From the IMG/VR virus record IMGVR_UViG_3300020057_000144, positions 1 through 25,730 of that record: DNA of 25,730 nucleotides, one strand, 5' to 3'. Source of the stretch: a virus. Shown here piece by piece: positions 8,790 through 25,131 of the stretch. Below the pieces are notes generated by a model that saw nothing but the letters and a program-made list of their open reading frames with translations, did not search any database and was not told where the DNA came from. The first letter of the stretch is position 1. Each line of letters opens with the position of its first letter. Made by a program: the position numbers and the translations under genes.

Positions 8790-10448
8790 TTATCGTCGGC
8801 CGCGCCGACGCGCCCGCGTAATCCATTCCGATGCCGTCGCGTCAGGCAGTAGAACGCCAAACTGCGATTGGCTTTGCGCCTTCCAGTCCTGTTTCCAATG
8901 CCCCACGATTTGCGCAAAGCCAAAGCCCTGACGCGGCGGCGGGTTATCGACCGCCGCAACACTGAAGTTCCAGCCCGCATTTGGCGCTTTAGTCTGCGCC
9001 CGCCAGCCCTGCCCCCACTGAGAACGGGCCGCACTGTAATCCCGCCTTGAAGGCGGATCATCTACTACCGCAACACTGAAGTTCCAACCCGCATTCGGCG
9101 CTTTAGTCTGCGCGTTCCATGTCTGCTTCCACTGACTTACCCCGGCACTGTAATCCCGCCTTGAAGGGGGATTATCAACAGCCTGAAAGTTCCAGCCCGC
9201 ATTCTGGGCGGCGCTTTGAGCGCTTTGAGCGATCCACCGTTGCCCCCACTGCGCAACAATTTGCGACAGCCCGTAAGACTGCCGCTGCGGTGGGGTATCG
9301 GGCGCGATATTCCACGCTGCATTCGGGGCGGCGCTCTGCGCGTTCCAGCCCTGCTTCCACTGACTTGCCCCGGCGCTGTAATCCTGCCTTGAAGGCGGAT
9401 TATCAACAGCCTGAAAGTTCCAACCCGCATTCGGCGCTTTAGTCTGCGCGTTCCAGCCCTGCTTCCACTGAGAACGGGCAGCGCTGTAATCCTGTCTCGG
9501 GGCCGGATCATCTACTACCGCAACACTGAAGTTCCAACCCGCATTCGGCGCTTTAGTCTGCGCCCGCCAGGTCTGCCCCCACTGAGAGCGGGCAGCGCTG
9601 TAATCCTGCCTTGAAGGTGGATTGTCAGCCGACGGGGCCGCCGCCGGCGCAAAGGCCAGCGTGTACACAACCCACGGCGATGACGTGGCCAGCGTCCATG
9701 ACGGGGTATAGGTGCCGGTGCTGGCCTCGATGCTGAAAATGAGACTGCCGCGCCAGGTATCGCCGCCGTCCTCATACTCGCTGATCAGCGTTCCGTACGT
9801 CTCCGTGATCGCCGTAGTGTTGGTCGATTCGTCCGTGTACGCGCCAATGACCAACGATCCGGCTGAGGTCGTCGTGATGCCATCCGACCCCGTAGTACTC
9901 GACCCGGATGCGCCGCCGCCGTCTACGACGCCAGTAACCGTCGCGCCGGAAAAAGCCGCGAATCCAAACGACCATCCGCCCGCCGCCGCTTTCGTCGCCG
10001 ACACAACGGGCGTACCGGCGAATCCGCTGATGCAGTAGGCGATCCATGCCGTTCCAGATCCCGCCCCGAGACTATGGCGCGTATACGTATTGCCTAGATC
10101 GTCCGTTACCGCCGTAATTACCGCCCCGTCCTGACCGGCCCCGCCGCCGACGATCAGCAGATCACCGACTGCGATTGCGCCTGCCGCCGTTATGGTTCTG
10201 GTTGTGCCGCCAGGAAAGACATGCGAATGGGCGGGCGTTACCCCGGCGACTCGCGTTATTGGCGCACTTGCCGCCGCAAAGTTCCACGCGCCCTGTGTAG
10301 ATTTCTGCGCCGCCCAAGTCTTGATCCATTGGGCTGTGATCTGCGGGGGTTGGGTGCCTACCGCTCGGGGCGGATCATCCGCAATGCCGCCGCCCTCAAC
10401 AAACGTCTGGAGGGCGTCATGCTGAAACCCGCTGTGCTGAAATGACAC
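8790..10448 (-). CDS. Trp-rich repeat virion-type protein
   Basis: 552 residues from GTG at 10448, immediately after the previous TAA (TAAGTG), with GAGGGG upstream. It opens MSFQHSGFQHDALQTFVEGG, the 'FQ..FQ.dAFQ' style seen at the start of some phage structural proteins. Residues about 25-60 hold a diverged repeat (DDPPRAVGTQ.. QWIKTWAAQ.. GAWNF). Residues 60-270 form a Gly/Thr/Ala-rich beta domain (GDLLIVGGGAGQDGAVITAV, AAGGWSFGFAAFSG). From about 273 to 537 come seven tandem units of about 35-41 residues with the core D-N/D-P-P-x-R...QW-x-Q-x-W-x-AQ...NAGWNF. The tail is basic (ITRARRRGRR). I do not recognise the repeat. It lies between a methyltransferase and the adaptor block, so a virion or surface-appendage role is plausible but unproven. 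Confidence 0.75.
   Translation of the reverse strand: MSFQHSGFQHDALQTFVEGGGIADDPPRAVGTQPPQITAQWIKTWAAQKSTQGAWNFAAASAPITRVAGVTPAHSHVFPGGTTRTITAAGAIAVGDLLIVGGGAGQDGAVITAVTDDLGNTYTRHSLGAGSGTAWIAYCISGFAGTPVVSATKAAAGGWSFGFAAFSGATVTGVVDGGGASGSSTTGSDGITTTSAGSLVIGAYTDESTNTTAITETYGTLISEYEDGGDTWRGSLIFSIEASTGTYTPSWTLATSSPWVVYTLAFAPAAAPSADNPPSRQDYSAARSQWGQTWRAQTKAPNAGWNFSVAVVDDPAPRQDYSAARSQWKQGWNAQTKAPNAGWNFQAVDNPPSRQDYSAGASQWKQGWNAQSAAPNAAWNIAPDTPPQRQSYGLSQIVAQWGQRWIAQSAQSAAQNAGWNFQAVDNPPSRRDYSAGVSQWKQTWNAQTKAPNAGWNFSVAVVDDPPSRRDYSAARSQWGQGWRAQTKAPNAGWNFSVAAVDNPPPRQGFGFAQIVGHWKQDWKAQSQSQFGVLLPDATASEWITRARRRGRR
8850..9632 (-). repeat. Seven tandem coding repeats of about 105-123 bases
   Basis: On the plus strand the array is marked by recurring blocks such as 'gttccaacccgcattcggcg' and 'ctgtaatcctgccttgaagg'. 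Units are 35-41 codons long. Several share whole stretches of identical bases (QTKAPNAGWNF occurs in four units), while units 3, 4 and 7 have diverged and one carries an SAQSAAQ insertion. The mixture of near-identical and diverged units indicates repeated in-frame duplication or gene conversion. Confidence 0.85.
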
Positions 10449-10997
10449 TTACTTACCCCTCTTTGTAAGCGTGACGAGTAAGTCTTGCGCTCCCTCCAGC
10501 AAGTGAATGACGGCGTAGTTCTGATACTCCATGTTTCGCAGTTGCACGGTCGGATGTAGTCCGAATCCGTAACCGTGGTCAAAGTCGCAGGTGTACCGAT
10601 CGTTGTGTGGCGCGTTGACCTTGCGCCATTCCGCATTCAGGTACAGGTACCAGAAAGTCACAACAGGCGGCCATTCGTGCGTCAGATCCCCATACGCCCG
10701 GACACTGGCATAGTGCGGCGTGATGATCTGCGCCTTGGCTTGCGGTTTCAAAACTCGGTGCAGTTCGTTGGCAAAGTGAATCCGCTCCATTGGTTTCAGG
10801 TGCTCAACCATGTGCGAGCAATGCACTTCGTCAACGGAATCCGTTTCCCACGGCCATGTCTCAGCGCCGAGGTTGCAGACGGTATCCACGCCATCGAAGG
10901 CGCGCGAGTCCACGCCGGTAAAGCCTTCCTTCTTGTTCTTGCCGCAGCCTAAATCCAGCTTGACCGGCTTGAGGATCTCTTCAAGGACGGCGCTCAC
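10449..10997 (-). CDS. Class I SAM-dependent methyltransferase
   Basis: 182 residues from GTG at 10997 (GTGA overlap with the previous stop; GAGGTG upstream). Motif I is VKLDLGCGKNKKEGFTGVDS at about 12-31, with the acidic adenosine-binding residue in GVD. Residues about 53-67, DSVDEVHCSHMVEHLKP, match the post-I region of small methyltransferases of the Methyltransf_11 type that precede an 'EHL' helix. FANELHRVLKPQAKAQIITP follows as motif III. The C-terminal 80 residues include NAPHNDRYTCDFDHGYGFGL. The substrate is unknown. Its coupling to a glycosyltransferase suggests methylation of a sugar or glycan, but a protein or small molecule is equally possible on sequence alone. Confidence 0.85.
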   Translation of the reverse strand: MSAVLEEILKPVKLDLGCGKNKKEGFTGVDSRAFDGVDTVCNLGAETWPWETDSVDEVHCSHMVEHLKPMERIHFANELHRVLKPQAKAQIITPHYASVRAYGDLTHEWPPVVTFWYLYLNAEWRKVNAPHNDRYTCDFDHGYGFGLHPTVQLRNMEYQNYAVIHLLEGAQDLLVTLTKRGK

Positions 10998-11713
10998 CAG
11001 GACACCTCATTCGCGGCGTCGTAATGACCCACCAGAACGGAACAGTCCACCGCGCACCGATAGCCGTGTTTCTTGAAGTCCCCCCATGCGTACAGGTCTT
11101 GCGTGCCTACACCAGTCCCCGCAGAGCCGTTCAGGGTCTTGAACCACGGCTTACGGAGTTTTTCATCCTTAAACATCGAAATACGCCACAGGTTGAACCC
11201 CATTCCAGTGCCGACACATTCAACAAGCTCACCGAGTTTCGGCGCTTGCGGGCGGAAATTCTGGATCGGGTCTTTCGGGTCGCCCCATATCTGCGGGACT
11301 CCACCCTCCCCTTTCGTCCAGTAAAGCCCACCAATACACCCGTACTCAGGATGTGCGTCCATTTTCTCGATCAGCTTAATCACCCCATCCGGAGGCGGTA
11401 TGTTGTCGTGTTCAATCGTCAGGATGTATTCCCACTGGCTCAGTTCCGGGTGATCTAAAATGGTCTGGATCGCGTTGCTATACGCCTCGCCGACCTCCTG
11501 ACCTAATGCGATCATCCTATGCACCCCGTTGTTGGGCGGGAAGATTAGGTTCCAGTGGCTTAAAGCGACCTTGGTGCTGATCTGATTAGAAGCAGGAAGA
11601 ATGACCACGATCCGCTGCCGCTTCCACTGCGCCGAGTCCTCCATCCGCTTGATGGAATAATCCAGCATCGCGTTATGCTTGCCGAAATCGTAGCTGACCA
11701 GTTCCGGCTTCAT
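10994..11713 (-). CDS. GT-A fold glycosyltransferase (GT2-like)
   Basis: 239 residues, ATG at 11713 in an ATGA overlap. Residues 34-40 (RIVVILP) form the first strand of the nucleotide-binding fold. GQEVGEAYSNAIQTIL follows, then YILTIEHDNIPPPDGVIKLI at about 97-115, where E-H-D-N takes the place of the DxD metal and nucleotide-sugar site. GCIGGLYWTKGE is the acceptor-side loop. TGTQDLYAWGDFKKHGYR at about 202-219 resembles the ED-type catalytic region, and LVGHYD gives a late metal-binding His. There is no signal or membrane segment, so it is cytoplasmic. Likely targets are a virion protein or a host-derived sugar; the neighbouring fibre and repeat proteins are candidates by position only. 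Confidence 0.75.
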   Translation of the reverse strand: MKPELVSYDFGKHNAMLDYSIKRMEDSAQWKRQRIVVILPASNQISTKVALSHWNLIFPPNNGVHRMIALGQEVGEAYSNAIQTILDHPELSQWEYILTIEHDNIPPPDGVIKLIEKMDAHPEYGCIGGLYWTKGEGGVPQIWGDPKDPIQNFRPQAPKLGELVECVGTGMGFNLWRISMFKDEKLRKPWFKTLNGSAGTGVGTQDLYAWGDFKKHGYRCAVDCSVLVGHYDAANEVSW

Positions 11714-12594
11714 ACCGTCCCGCTCTGGAAGTAGAACACAGGCACACGCTGCGCCAAAGAAGCTGTCCCCCGGATCTGACTAAAGGCCACGGAAGCCGGA
11801 ACGTCGGTGCTGCTGGCGCTGTAATAGCCCTGACCTAACAGGGCTTGATTCGTCGCGTTGCTCGCCACACCGAAGATGCCTGAGTGGTTTGAGTTAGGCT
11901 GTGAAGCGAACCATTGGGAAATGGTCATATTCGCCCCGCCCGTCGTCGAGCGCGATGCAATGCCAGCCCAATACCCGCCTTCATCTATCGTGGATGTCCA
12001 CGGAATGGTTAAGTCCCGGCTTCCACCGAACAGAGAAAAACTTCCCGCCGTCCCCGACATCGTAACCGCTTGGGTGCTGGAAGTGCTGTGCAGCATGGAA
12101 AGCGTCGATCCGCTTTGCGAATACAGCCCAAACCAAAATGACAGCGTGCCAGACCCGGAACTATTGCTTGCGTTGGAAAAAAAGATAGGGATAACAAGCC
12201 GGTCAAACTTGAACGGTTCGAGCCGCCGCATCGGCTGAAAGTGCCATGTTGCCTGCCCATGCTGCCCCACCACGGGTTCCTCGAATACCGCGGGAGGATA
12301 AAGCCCGTCTTGAACCTGCTTCTGTATCCAGAGCGTCGCCGCGCCTGCTGCGGTGGAGTGTGAGACCTCAATCCCGTTTAATCCACCGATGATAAGGTTC
12401 GTCCCGCTCGCAGTTGAAGTCCCTGCGGTATTCCCCGAAATCGTCTGAAAGAAGTTATGCGCCGAATTCCAGTCCGACGGGCGGACAAGATTCGTCGCCA
12501 CAATGGTGGTCGTTGACCCTTGCGAATTGAAACCCGTAACGGTTCCAGTGAAGTCCGCAATGGCGTCGCTTTTGACGTGTGAAAACGCGCTCAT
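11710..12594 (-). CDS. Putative tail fibre / receptor-binding structural protein
   Basis: 294 residues, MSAFSHVKSDAIADFTGTVT, then STTTIVATNLVRPSDWNSAH, a recurrent phage-type N-terminus in which the RPSDWNSAHN segment precedes a short coiled fibre stem. Residues about 50-95 are Gly/Thr/Ser-rich. About 95-290 is a beta-rich domain with many Ser, Thr, Gly and aromatic residues (LTIPWTSTIDEGGYWAGIAS, MTISQWFASQPNSNHSGIFG), ending VPVFYFQSGTV. There is no ribosome site before the ATG; its ATGA overlaps a 15-codon mini-ORF, which suggests coupled translation. Fibre or appendage assignment is by composition and N-terminal pattern. Confidence 0.7.
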   Translation of the reverse strand: MSAFSHVKSDAIADFTGTVTGFNSQGSTTTIVATNLVRPSDWNSAHNFFQTISGNTAGTSTASGTNLIIGGLNGIEVSHSTAAGAATLWIQKQVQDGLYPPAVFEEPVVGQHGQATWHFQPMRRLEPFKFDRLVIPIFFSNASNSSGSGTLSFWFGLYSQSGSTLSMLHSTSSTQAVTMSGTAGSFSLFGGSRDLTIPWTSTIDEGGYWAGIASRSTTGGANMTISQWFASQPNSNHSGIFGVASNATNQALLGQGYYSASSTDVPASVAFSQIRGTASLAQRVPVFYFQSGTV

Positions 12595-12638
12595 AGGTCA
12601 GAGGTCAGAGCCAGCAGGTATTTAAACACCGCCTCCAT
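12591..12638 (-). CDS. Possible 15-residue coupling mini-ORF
   Basis: ATG at 12638 begins 4 bases after the fibronectin-like gene's TGA and encodes MEAVFKYLLALTSDL. Its stop TGA overlaps the start of the 294-residue gene as ATGA. The sequence before the 294-residue gene's ATG (GGCTCTGACCTCTGACCT) has no purine-rich ribosome site, so ribosomes delivered by this mini-ORF may be how that gene is translated. Length is too short to judge coding by composition; this rests on start, stop and spacing alone. Confidence 0.4.
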   Translation of the reverse strand: MEAVFKYLLALTSDL

Positions 12639-12642
12639 TTTC

Positions 12643-12999
12643 TCAGGGTCCACCTACCACTCGAAGATTCGATGGCGCAGGAGGCGCAGTAAAAGGGATG
12701 GTACGGGCCACCTGATTAGAGTAGGCGGACGGTCCCCCAGGGCCGACTGCGCGCACCTGATAGCAGTAGGTAGAGCCCTCAGCCAGTCCGGTGTCACTGT
12801 AACTGCGAAGAGTTTTTGGCACGGTGCCAATTTCCGCAAACGTGCCCACCGCCGCACAGGTGCCGGTCTTGCGCTCGGCGTTGAACGTCGTCGTCCTGCT
12901 TTCATCCACAACCGGAAAGTCCCAGGTCAGGGTGTTCGTTTGCGCGTAGGCCGTGACACTCGCACACAACAGGGCTGTGAGTACCATTCGAATTCTCAT
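12643..12999 (-). CDS. Secreted fibronectin type III-like protein
   Basis: 118 residues from ATG at 12999, with GGAGG upstream; a longer in-frame ORF from 13191 is rejected because it would overlap the previous gene. Residues 1-19 (MRIRMVLTALLCASVTAYA) are a clear Sec signal peptide with an AYA-Q cleavage site. The Cys at 12 is not in a lipobox. Residues about 22-103 look like one Fn3 domain: LTWDFP first strand, ERKTGTC..VGTFAEIG, then SYSDTGLAEGSTYCYQVRAV and GPSAYSNQV, the typical 'L..gttY.y.V.Av...g.S..Sn' close. C48 and C79 could form a disulfide in the periplasm. An exported Fn3 protein in the middle of a structural operon is unusual; envelope binding or a role in release or exclusion is speculative. 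Confidence 0.8.
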   Translation of the reverse strand: MRIRMVLTALLCASVTAYAQTNTLTWDFPVVDESRTTTFNAERKTGTCAAVGTFAEIGTVPKTLRSYSDTGLAEGSTYCYQVRAVGPGGPSAYSNQVARTIPFTAPPAPSNLRVVGGP

Positions 13000-13030
13000 A
13001 AAAAATCCTCCAAAAGTGTCGTTTGAATCC

Positions 13031-13049
13031 GGGAGGCCGAAGCCCCCCC
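13031..13049 (-). other. UUCG-loop RNA hairpin between genes
   Basis: On the transcribed strand GGGGGGGC-TTCG-GCCTCCC forms a strong stem with a UUCG-type tetraloop, just after the 160-residue gene's stop and about 30 bases before the fibronectin-like gene. There is no T-tract after it, so it is more likely an mRNA-stabilising or processing hairpin than an intrinsic terminator. Confidence 0.55.
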
Positions 13050-13058
13050 GCTCAACTA

Positions 13059-13541
13059 TTAGCCGAGTTCGCGGTAGGTCATCCCCGCCGTCCAGTTCAC
13101 CGCTGAGGTCGGCGCGGCAGGCAGAAACAGGCCCAGACCGGAAGCCGCAGAGGCGTTCATCATGATCGTGTCCACCGGCGTCGGCACCCACAGCCAGCCG
13201 TTCAGCACGTTGAACGAATCCGAGTACACCACAGACTTACCCCCCGCACCTTCTGCCGAAGCGACGATGCCAGACGTGCCCGCCGCACCCGTCGTACCGC
13301 CGACAATCACAGACGCCGGATCAAGCAGTTTGGTCTTGCTCGGGGTGATCGTGGTCAGTGTCGGGAAGGCAGTGACTTGCGTGGACAACTGGCAACGCTG
13401 CTGCGCCGAGGTCGCGGAACCGGCTTGCGACAACCATGCACGCAGAAATTCCAGCGTCGCAGTCGTGCCAGGGTTGACAAATACCATTGTGATCGCGCCG
13501 GCGGTCACGTTCGTTGCGAGGACATTGTATTCACGGGCCAT
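13059..13541 (-). CDS. Hypothetical structural protein
   Basis: 160 residues, MAREYNVLATNVTAGAITMV. AAAGGAAA lies 7 bases upstream of the ATG. It is rich in Thr, Ala, Gly and Ser and predicted mostly beta (ATLEFLRAWLSQAGSATSAQ, VVYSDSFNVLNGWLWVPTPV), ending WTAGMTYRELG. No membrane segment or catalytic motif. Composition and position after the head genes suggest a capsid decoration, fibre-attachment or minor structural protein. Its leader (ATTTTTGCAACTTTTAAAGG) resembles the leaders of the two fibre-like genes upstream. Confidence 0.65.
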   Translation of the reverse strand: MAREYNVLATNVTAGAITMVFVNPGTTATLEFLRAWLSQAGSATSAQQRCQLSTQVTAFPTLTTITPSKTKLLDPASVIVGGTTGAAGTSGIVASAEGAGGKSVVYSDSFNVLNGWLWVPTPVDTIMMNASAASGLGLFLPAAPTSAVNWTAGMTYRELG

Positions 13542-24270: not shown

Positions 24271-24853
24271 TACCCAACTGATCGTTGTCTCTCTCGTACA
24301 AGCCGTGGTACTTCATGGCCTTTTCCAGAGCGGCGTTTTTGTCGTGTAGCCTGACCTTTTTGGAACATCCAATGCTTTTGCCCTCGCCACCCATCAACTC
24401 ATCAACATCAAAGCCGGACACAGCCGCCGCTGAATCGTCGTCCAACTCATGCGGCAACTTAAGCGTGCCGTCCTCCCGGTAGAGCTTGCGGATGTCCGCA
24501 TAGGACAACCTGGCAACCTCGCGCAATGTGCGCTCCGTCGTTAATTCGTATTTACTCAACACCTTGCCAAGCCTCTCGCGCAAAAGGGCGGCAACCTCCG
24601 GATGCCTTATCATTTTGCTGCCAACCACTTCGGCGCCCTTGCGGCTGTATCCGGCATTGATTGCAGCAACCTTGCCGTTCCCGCCATTGGAAAGGTACGC
24701 CTCGACGAACAACGCTCGCCGGTGCTCGGCCGACATCTGCGACGTGCCGCCAACCTTTACCGTTTTCTGGCGAGCCTTCGATGCCCTCACTAATGGCTTA
24801 GGCTTCTTTACTAATAACTTAGGCTTCTTTACTAATGGCTTAGGCCTCTTCAC
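24218..24853 (-). CDS. Terminase small subunit
   Basis: 211 residues from GTG at 24853. The previous gene's stop overlaps it as GTGA, and GGAGGAG sits 6 bases upstream, making it better than an in-frame ATG at 24952. Residues 1-21 are three basic heptads (VKRPKPL, VKKPKLL, VKKPKPL) encoded by a 21-base repeat. About 40-110 is the Terminase_2-type helix-turn-helix region: LFVEAYLSNGGNGKVAAINA GYSRKGAEVVGSKMI, RHPEVAALLRERLGKVL. The rest is helical with an acidic middle (HELDDDSAAAVSGFDVDELM) and the final ALEKAMKYHGLYE that often ends this family. It recognises phage DNA for packaging and works with the adjacent large subunit. Confidence 0.88.
   Translation of the reverse strand: MKRPKPLVKKPKLLVKKPKPLVRASKARQKTVKVGGTSQMSAEHRRALFVEAYLSNGGNGKVAAINAGYSRKGAEVVGSKMIRHPEVAALLRERLGKVLSKYELTTERTLREVARLSYADIRKLYREDGTLKLPHELDDDSAAAVSGFDVDELMGGEGKSIGCSKKVRLHDKNAALEKAMKYHGLYERDNDQLGNAVARIFIVPGKQVGSG
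24791..24853. repeat. Three 21-base coding repeats at the terminase small-subunit start
   Basis: Units at 24791-24811, 24812-24832 and 24833-24853 on the plus strand start taatggcttaggc / taataacttaggc / taatggcttaggc. They encode a basic-proline heptad, and the last one ends exactly on the GTG start codon. Copy-number change would lengthen or shorten the DNA-binding arm in frame. Confidence 0.8.
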
Positions 24854-25131
24854 TGCGAACTCCTCCGGCTCCAAGCGGCGCCGCCGCGCTTGTTGTTCAG
24901 GAGCAAAACGGCGGCGCCGACTAGAATCATGGAATTCGGCCCCAGGTTCCACTCCGGATGGAAAAGCGGGTACAGCACGGCCCAGAAGGCACCGACGGCA
25001 AGAAACCAGTGAGCCACCCTGACGCCGTGCGCCGTCTGTCGTGACATCAACCAGATAATTCGGCCACTGACTAGAAGCAACGCAACAGCCAGCGCTGTGT
25101 GAATTATCGCTAATGCTTCCATGATTCTCAT
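24850..25131 (-). CDS. Small membrane protein, possible holin
   Basis: 93 residues, MRIMEALAIIHTALAVALLL. The ATG at 25131 overlaps the previous stop as ATGA. Three hydrophobic segments: about 5-28 (ALAIIHTALAVALLLVSGRI IWLM), 41-57 (HWFLAVGAFWAVLYPLF) and 64-80 (GPNSMILVGAAVLLLNN). A short charged tail (KRGGAAWSRRSSQ) follows. Length, three-span layout and position next to terminase genes and another membrane protein fit a class I-type holin, but the sequence itself is not a recognised holin family. It could also be a membrane accessory protein. Confidence 0.65.
   Translation of the reverse strand: MRIMEALAIIHTALAVALLLVSGRIIWLMSRQTAHGVRVAHWFLAVGAFWAVLYPLFHPEWNLGPNSMILVGAAVLLLNNKRGGAAWSRRSSQ

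Follow-up and report, generated by a model that had tools for sequence, protein, structure and literature searches.

In the tail and head fibre genes of phages, a constant N-terminal part provides attachment and the C-terminal part is exchanged, and glycosyltransferases (GTs) that modify virion proteins are known for some mycobacteriophages. In phage SU10, the portal, capsid, adaptor and nozzle are gp6, gp9, gp11 and gp17, respectively (PMC9509320).

The DNA analysed here (the window) is the whole 25,730-nt stretch of a 25.7 kb IMG/VR virus record, and includes genes for terminase, portal, capsid, an SU10-type adaptor (PF24175) and collar-domain fibres; the adaptor is a feature shared with SU10-type podoviruses. 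The 688-aa protein that follows the adaptor has a relative in MW202426 annotated as ‘phage stabilization protein’. A cassette comprising a fibre-like ORF, a GT, a methyltransferase (MT) and, as the last gene, a protein with an N-terminal ‘FQ tag’ lies between the capsid and adaptor genes. Like fibre genes, the FQ-tagged class has a constant N-terminus encoded beside conserved genes and an unrelated, exchanged remainder, and is located among structural genes; unlike fibre genes, the constant part is about 15–35 aa with repeated FQ pairs, the bodies consist for the most part of short tandem repeats, and the gene is coupled to the GT and MT. None of the fibre families was matched by the window ORF. 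The window GT gene resembles those of mycobacteriophages in lying inside a structural gene block, but differs in having a fixed MT partner and an FQ-tagged protein, in contigs whose capsid and portal families differ.

Among annotated phage records, the GT was found in only three, from Manatee Spring, with the best match in podovirus ctKR88 (MW202524; 64% identity). As in the window, the ctKR88 GT is followed by an MT, and the pair lies between the capsid and ‘phage stabilization protein’ genes; unlike the window, the ctKR88 annotation has small hypothetical proteins after the MT and no FQ-tagged repeat protein. A search of the open-access literature returned nothing relevant on FQ-tag or Trp-repeat phage proteins, which is weak evidence of novelty, and no description of a GT–MT–FQ cassette, in which the repeat body appears to be the exchangeable part.

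The GT–MT–FQ cassette and its genomic setting

The preliminary description named the neighbouring GT and MT as context only, yet this link turned out to be the lead that mattered. The cassette and the genes beside it are as follows.

8790..10448, (-): FQ-tagged Trp-repeat ORF, 552 aa, with a GTG start abutting the MT stop codon
10449..10997, (-): MT of the cassette, 182 aa (PF08241, E=1e-5), conserved after the GT in related loci
10994..11713, (-): GT2-like GT, 239 aa (weak PF00535, weak SpsA 1h7l)
11710..12594, (-): fibre-like protein upstream of the GT, 294 aa, with a related N-terminus in about 50 loci
10269..12603, (-): cassette segment of 2.3 kb (294-aa ORF, GT, MT, tag and Trp unit 1), missing from contigs L002, L004 and L005
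13059..13541, (-): 160-aa protein, with relatives upstream of the cassette in L029 (41%) and of a Trp protein in L093 (47%)

The ORF had been delimited correctly in the preliminary description (minus strand, GTG start, 552 aa), which had also placed its translation directly after the MT and GT, as borne out by the MT stop codon that abuts the GTG; a purine-rich AAGAGGGG lies upstream of the start. Our definition of the FQ tag requires F/V-Q pairs that recur at intervals of about 5 residues in the first ~30 aa. A search with the N-terminus identified a different phage (L008) in which these four genes recur in identical order; its FQ protein starts with MSFQHSGFQHNAFQ, has a body unlike that of the window protein, and retains intact start–stop coupling. 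Just downstream of the L008 FQ protein is a gene for a 99-aa protein (L008:7840-8139) that reads as GroES-like, a call made by reading the sequence.

Relatives of the GT were identified in at least 80 other IMG/VR loci (80 of 223 candidates) at 64–86% identity, with the MT following the GT. An FQ-tagged ORF is encoded directly after the MT in 38 of 78 loci, and the other 40 have no such tag there. The strict FQ motif gave 42 hits among 3087 plus-strand ORFs of GT loci, all 42 of them located 404–1431 nt past the GT end (shuffles give 2.8). Contigs with the GT carry different capsid and portal families, and in L029, L038, L047, L050 and L059 the cassette lies between the portal and scaffold/capsid genes. 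The tag, GT and MT are common to dozens of otherwise unrelated environmental phages, and the cassette is probably mobile. Across 84,980 bacterial and archaeal genomes, the GT was found in one short MAG contig only; thus, the cassette looks virus-borne, and this result gives no host.

Several observations concern neighbouring genes. The 160-aa protein precedes the cassette in both the window and L029 (L029:3406-3921), and precedes the remote Trp protein in L093 (L093:3243-3743), a locus that may be without GT and MT; this protein may be one more constant component of the module. In the structural block just upstream of the cassette, the window also encodes a short Fn3-like protein (12643-13191) with an apparent signal peptide (MRIRMVLTALLCASVTAYAQ); compared with L002:4247-4612, the signal peptide differs and the rest is about 95% identical in DNA. 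A tandem repeat of 21 bp (3.1 copies, 24789-24854) is present at the terminase small subunit gene.

The Trp-repeat protein of the window

The 552-aa protein has the following parts, listed from the N-terminus.

10404..10448, (-): N-terminal FQ tag MSFQHSGFQHDALQT, aa 1-15, constant among cassettes (in L008, MSFQHSGFQHNAFQ)
10269..10379, (-): diverged Trp unit 1, aa 24-60
9633..10268, (-): non-repeat, probably all-beta domain, aa 61-272, with a V.D..GNTYT motif
9513..9626, (-): Trp unit 2, aa 275-312
9405..9512, (-): Trp unit 3, aa 313-348
9300..9404, (-): Trp unit 4, aa 349-383
9177..9299, (-): Trp unit 5, aa 384-424, long type
9063..9176, (-): Trp unit 6, aa 425-462
8949..9062, (-): Trp unit 7, aa 463-500
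8829..8948, (-): Trp unit 8, aa 501-540, without the third Trp motif
8793..8828, (-): basic C-terminal cap EWITRARRRGRR, aa 541-552

The preliminary description recognised the repeats, and its count of about eight copies (one diverged and seven in tandem) agrees with the eight units of 35–41 aa found here; it made no mention of the FQ tag, the basic cap or the non-repeat domain (~210 aa) that separates Trp unit 1 from unit 2. Beta strands in this domain come from a very low-confidence model only. Using hhalign, the domain shares a short GNTYT stretch with L071 (E 0.001, probability 20%), and a relation to domains of L016 and L070 was unsupported.

The units follow the layout D-x-P-[PA] ... QWxQxWxAQ ... 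WN, and all eight retain the D, third-position P, both W, A and Q of ‘D-x-P ... W-x3-W-x-AQ’ without change. The Trp residues are spaced as W-x3-W, then 11 or more residues, and so do not match C-mannosylated W-x-x-W repeats, in which two residues separate the two Trp. Three Trp per unit, as first proposed, holds for seven units and fails for the last, which is without the third; likewise, the proposed NAGWNF core is exact in five units, and is replaced by NAAWNI in unit 4 and GAWNF in unit 1, with no equivalent in unit 8. When scored by a profile of units 2–8 alone, unit 1 reached 13.7 bits, more than all 2000 shuffles of the N-terminus; judged by this profile, unit 1 is homologous to units 2–8.

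The repeats had been described as near-identical in DNA and as the product of recent in-frame expansion, of which the first is incorrect and the second finds no support in the window gene. DNA identity between gap-free units is 72–89%, with dN of 0.05–0.25 versus dS of 0.42–1.45; thus, the units are diverged copies with their protein sequence kept rather than fresh copies. The seven tandem units of the near-identical contig L002 show no differences from the window in 837 nt, so the comparison of repeat number proposed earlier found the same copy number in this pair; it did find a change of one unit in another pair of contigs (L027 and L029, see below).

Consistent with the preliminary description, the repeat family could not be named: no match was obtained in Pfam, PHROGs, NCBIfam, PDB sequences, INPHARED phages or PLSDB plasmids. 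For the ORF, there was nothing above the cut-off in Pfam, even when listing to E 10 (including repeat and carbohydrate-binding families), no match in NCBIfam (curated repeat and carbohydrate-binding families), and no PHROGs family at E<=0.1. PF08931 (E 0.41) and phrog_8545 (E 0.11) were dismissed as far below cut-off. L007 was rejected as a relative; it shares only DDPPSRRDYS, at the start of an unrelated ORF, which we take as chance. Also set aside was H21 in a faecal phage, a weak match (E 0.7) in a record without annotation. The unit profile found no relative in the 84,980 bacterial and archaeal genomes. In IMG/VR, the near relatives of the window gene are on four contigs (L002–L005), and the sole remote relative of the unit is a Pro/Trp-rich protein present in identical form on three contigs (L093–L095). 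It carries QWIQNWPAQTRAPWAGW, QWAQDWGAQ and DNPPQR (unit-profile E 0.003); because this protein was found via the QWxQxWxAQ pattern, the independent evidence consists only of the flanking residues and the second copy.

FQ-tagged proteins and their bodies

The window ORF fits the FQ class in having the tag MSFQHSGFQHDALQT, a position directly after the GT and MT, a tandem-repeat body and a C-terminal cap. The 42 strict FQ ORFs together with the window ORF represent 32 distinct proteins, with 21 body groups that have no detectable similarity to each other. Tandem repeats are present in 16 of the 20 bodies of at least 150 aa, versus 8 of 150 control ORFs (stop-to-stop frames rather than verified genes); the window body (repeat z=12.5) forms its own cluster among FQ bodies. 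The caps, which cannot be recognised in every member, are either basic (RARRRGRR-like) or an acidic coiled coil; caps like that of the window are YIIRARRRGRR in L024 and SEWLQKARRRRMR in L065, the latter having tag and cap with nothing between. In L012–L091, the FQ-tagged proteins encoded 0.4–1.4 kb past the GT, with repeat bodies unrelated to one another, make up a large class that goes with the GT and MT and has remained unannotated.

Two pairs of contigs show how the bodies differ. Between L031 and L033, the GT, the MT and the tag region up to its end (FQQGALVVAGG) align at 89% DNA identity, and no alignment was found past that point. In L027 and L029, which are 98.5–99.8% identical, the FQ proteins differ by exactly one 35-aa unit of the VDQPPVTRRSQPSWPAITWQAPASVKVAALIEPAP type. 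This unit has a D-x-P-P start and a Trp-rich core, in a gene at the same cassette position as the window ORF; its likeness to the window unit is a resemblance only, with homology lacking statistical support.

The fibre-like genes upstream of the GT, including that of the window (11710-12594), have a constant N-terminus (SHVKSDxIADFTGT) and a changing C-terminal part; in L031:3983-4393 versus L033:3806-4216, the N-terminal part alone is common. Because this gene also varies at its C-terminal part, the GT and MT are flanked by two variable genes. In L071:6236-7888, a GNTYT-type domain comes first, followed by the FQ tag, beta repeats and an acidic cap; the internal position of the tag indicates that modules have been re-ordered.

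Possible roles of the FQ-tagged protein

An AlphaFold2 model of two units (six in-register rows) has one helix per unit (SAARSQWGQTWRAQ) joined by unstructured linkers; with pLDDT 54 and pTM 0.22, it is too uncertain to rule out that the units pack in an oligomer. The model of the full-length protein (pLDDT 28) is unusable. Given such poor models, no fold or ligand is established.

Taking the repeats, the tag, the linkage to the cassette, the body swap at the tag boundary, the change of unit number in a relative and the position among head genes, all of which are observed, we tentatively interpret the ORF as a member of a phage protein class in which a constant FQ tag is followed by an interchangeable body, usually of tandem repeats, and then by a C-terminal cap; the gene would be the last of a mobile cassette, and the body would act as a flexible multivalent string on the virion. 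This is the reading we prefer, with confidence somewhat short of even. In the window protein, the body is made of the eight Trp units and one additional domain. Location on the virion is probable from gene order only. The protein would be expressed as a late structural protein and docked on or in the virion by the FQ tag, perhaps also by the cap; the body would be a flexible string of short Trp helices making many weak contacts with host surface material or with other virion proteins. Phages would change the body by swapping or by unit number, and the GT and MT may modify the FQ protein or its fibre-like neighbour.

An internal or assembly function is unlikely, but is the foremost alternative: the protein would act like a scaffold, associate with DNA or be ejected along with the genome, the basic RARRRGRR cap binding DNA and the Trp helices binding membrane or the capsid interior. 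Such a role accords with a cassette that adjoins portal, scaffold and capsid genes, with caps that are strongly basic or acidic, and with a hydrophilic repeat region that plots on the disordered side of the charge–hydropathy boundary. However, body swapping and changes in copy number fit surface exposure better; the predicted helices are not clearly amphipathic, with amphipathicity of the repeat region not above shuffles.

Less likely again is that the repeats serve mainly as an acceptor, to which the GT (and MT) would attach and cap sugars, so that the virion would bear a glycan coat whose length varies. The strict linkage of the GT, MT and FQ genes, the highly conserved GT beside a highly variable protein, and the abundance of S/T/N/Q residues in the Trp units are all compatible with this role. 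Nevertheless, no common acceptor motif was identified among the bodies, the fibre-like neighbour would be an equally good substrate, and L002 keeps the domain and repeats without a GT and MT at that place.

The contigs that are without the cassette also bear on whether the window ORF is an accidental fusion (a recombination scar or assembly chimera), in which an imported cassette, cut within its FQ protein, was joined in frame to an unrelated domain–repeat gene. The window aligns with L002, L004 and L005 on either side of 10268-12604, and in these contigs the gene begins at the non-repeat beta domain, from an ATG or GTG that has no evident ribosome site; L002 also has seven units. Thus, the tag is not always needed. 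Furthermore, 12 of the 20 differences between the window and L002 cluster at 10055-10264, next to the junction, which indicates a recombination point inside the non-repeat domain. Against accidental fusion, homologous Trp units are present on both sides of the junction, the layout of tag, body and cap is complete, as in other FQ proteins, and the frame and start–stop coupling are intact, as in L008; we therefore regard it as improbable. That unit 1 lies on the cassette side suggests an earlier state in which tag and repeats were united.

The least probable reading, which develops the stacking of Trp repeats suggested in the preliminary description, is an ordered solenoid that binds sugars; we consider it highly improbable: the Trp spacing is regular (4 and 11 residues within a unit) and the units are conserved at the protein level, but the two-unit model has isolated helices and no known repeat family was matched.

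We return to the preferred reading, a tagged protein with an exchangeable body. The repeats alone would be one more unnamed phage repeat; what counts is the cassette, in which two highly conserved enzymes accompany a protein that keeps its first residues and has its whole body exchanged, in phages whose head proteins differ. A broader proposal, doubtful at present, is that GT–MT–FQ is a widespread and so far undescribed diversification cassette of uncultured phages, in which the short FQ peptide would be a universal docking tag across unrelated capsids, bodies (Trp repeats, beta repeats and others) would be swapped at the tag boundary or resized by unit number, and the GT and MT would modify the displayed protein. 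The cassette leads to the prediction that the FQ peptide is a docking signal, and would offer a handle for annotating hypervariable phage proteins absent from current libraries; should the tag prove to be a portable anchor, it may be of use for display on phage particles.
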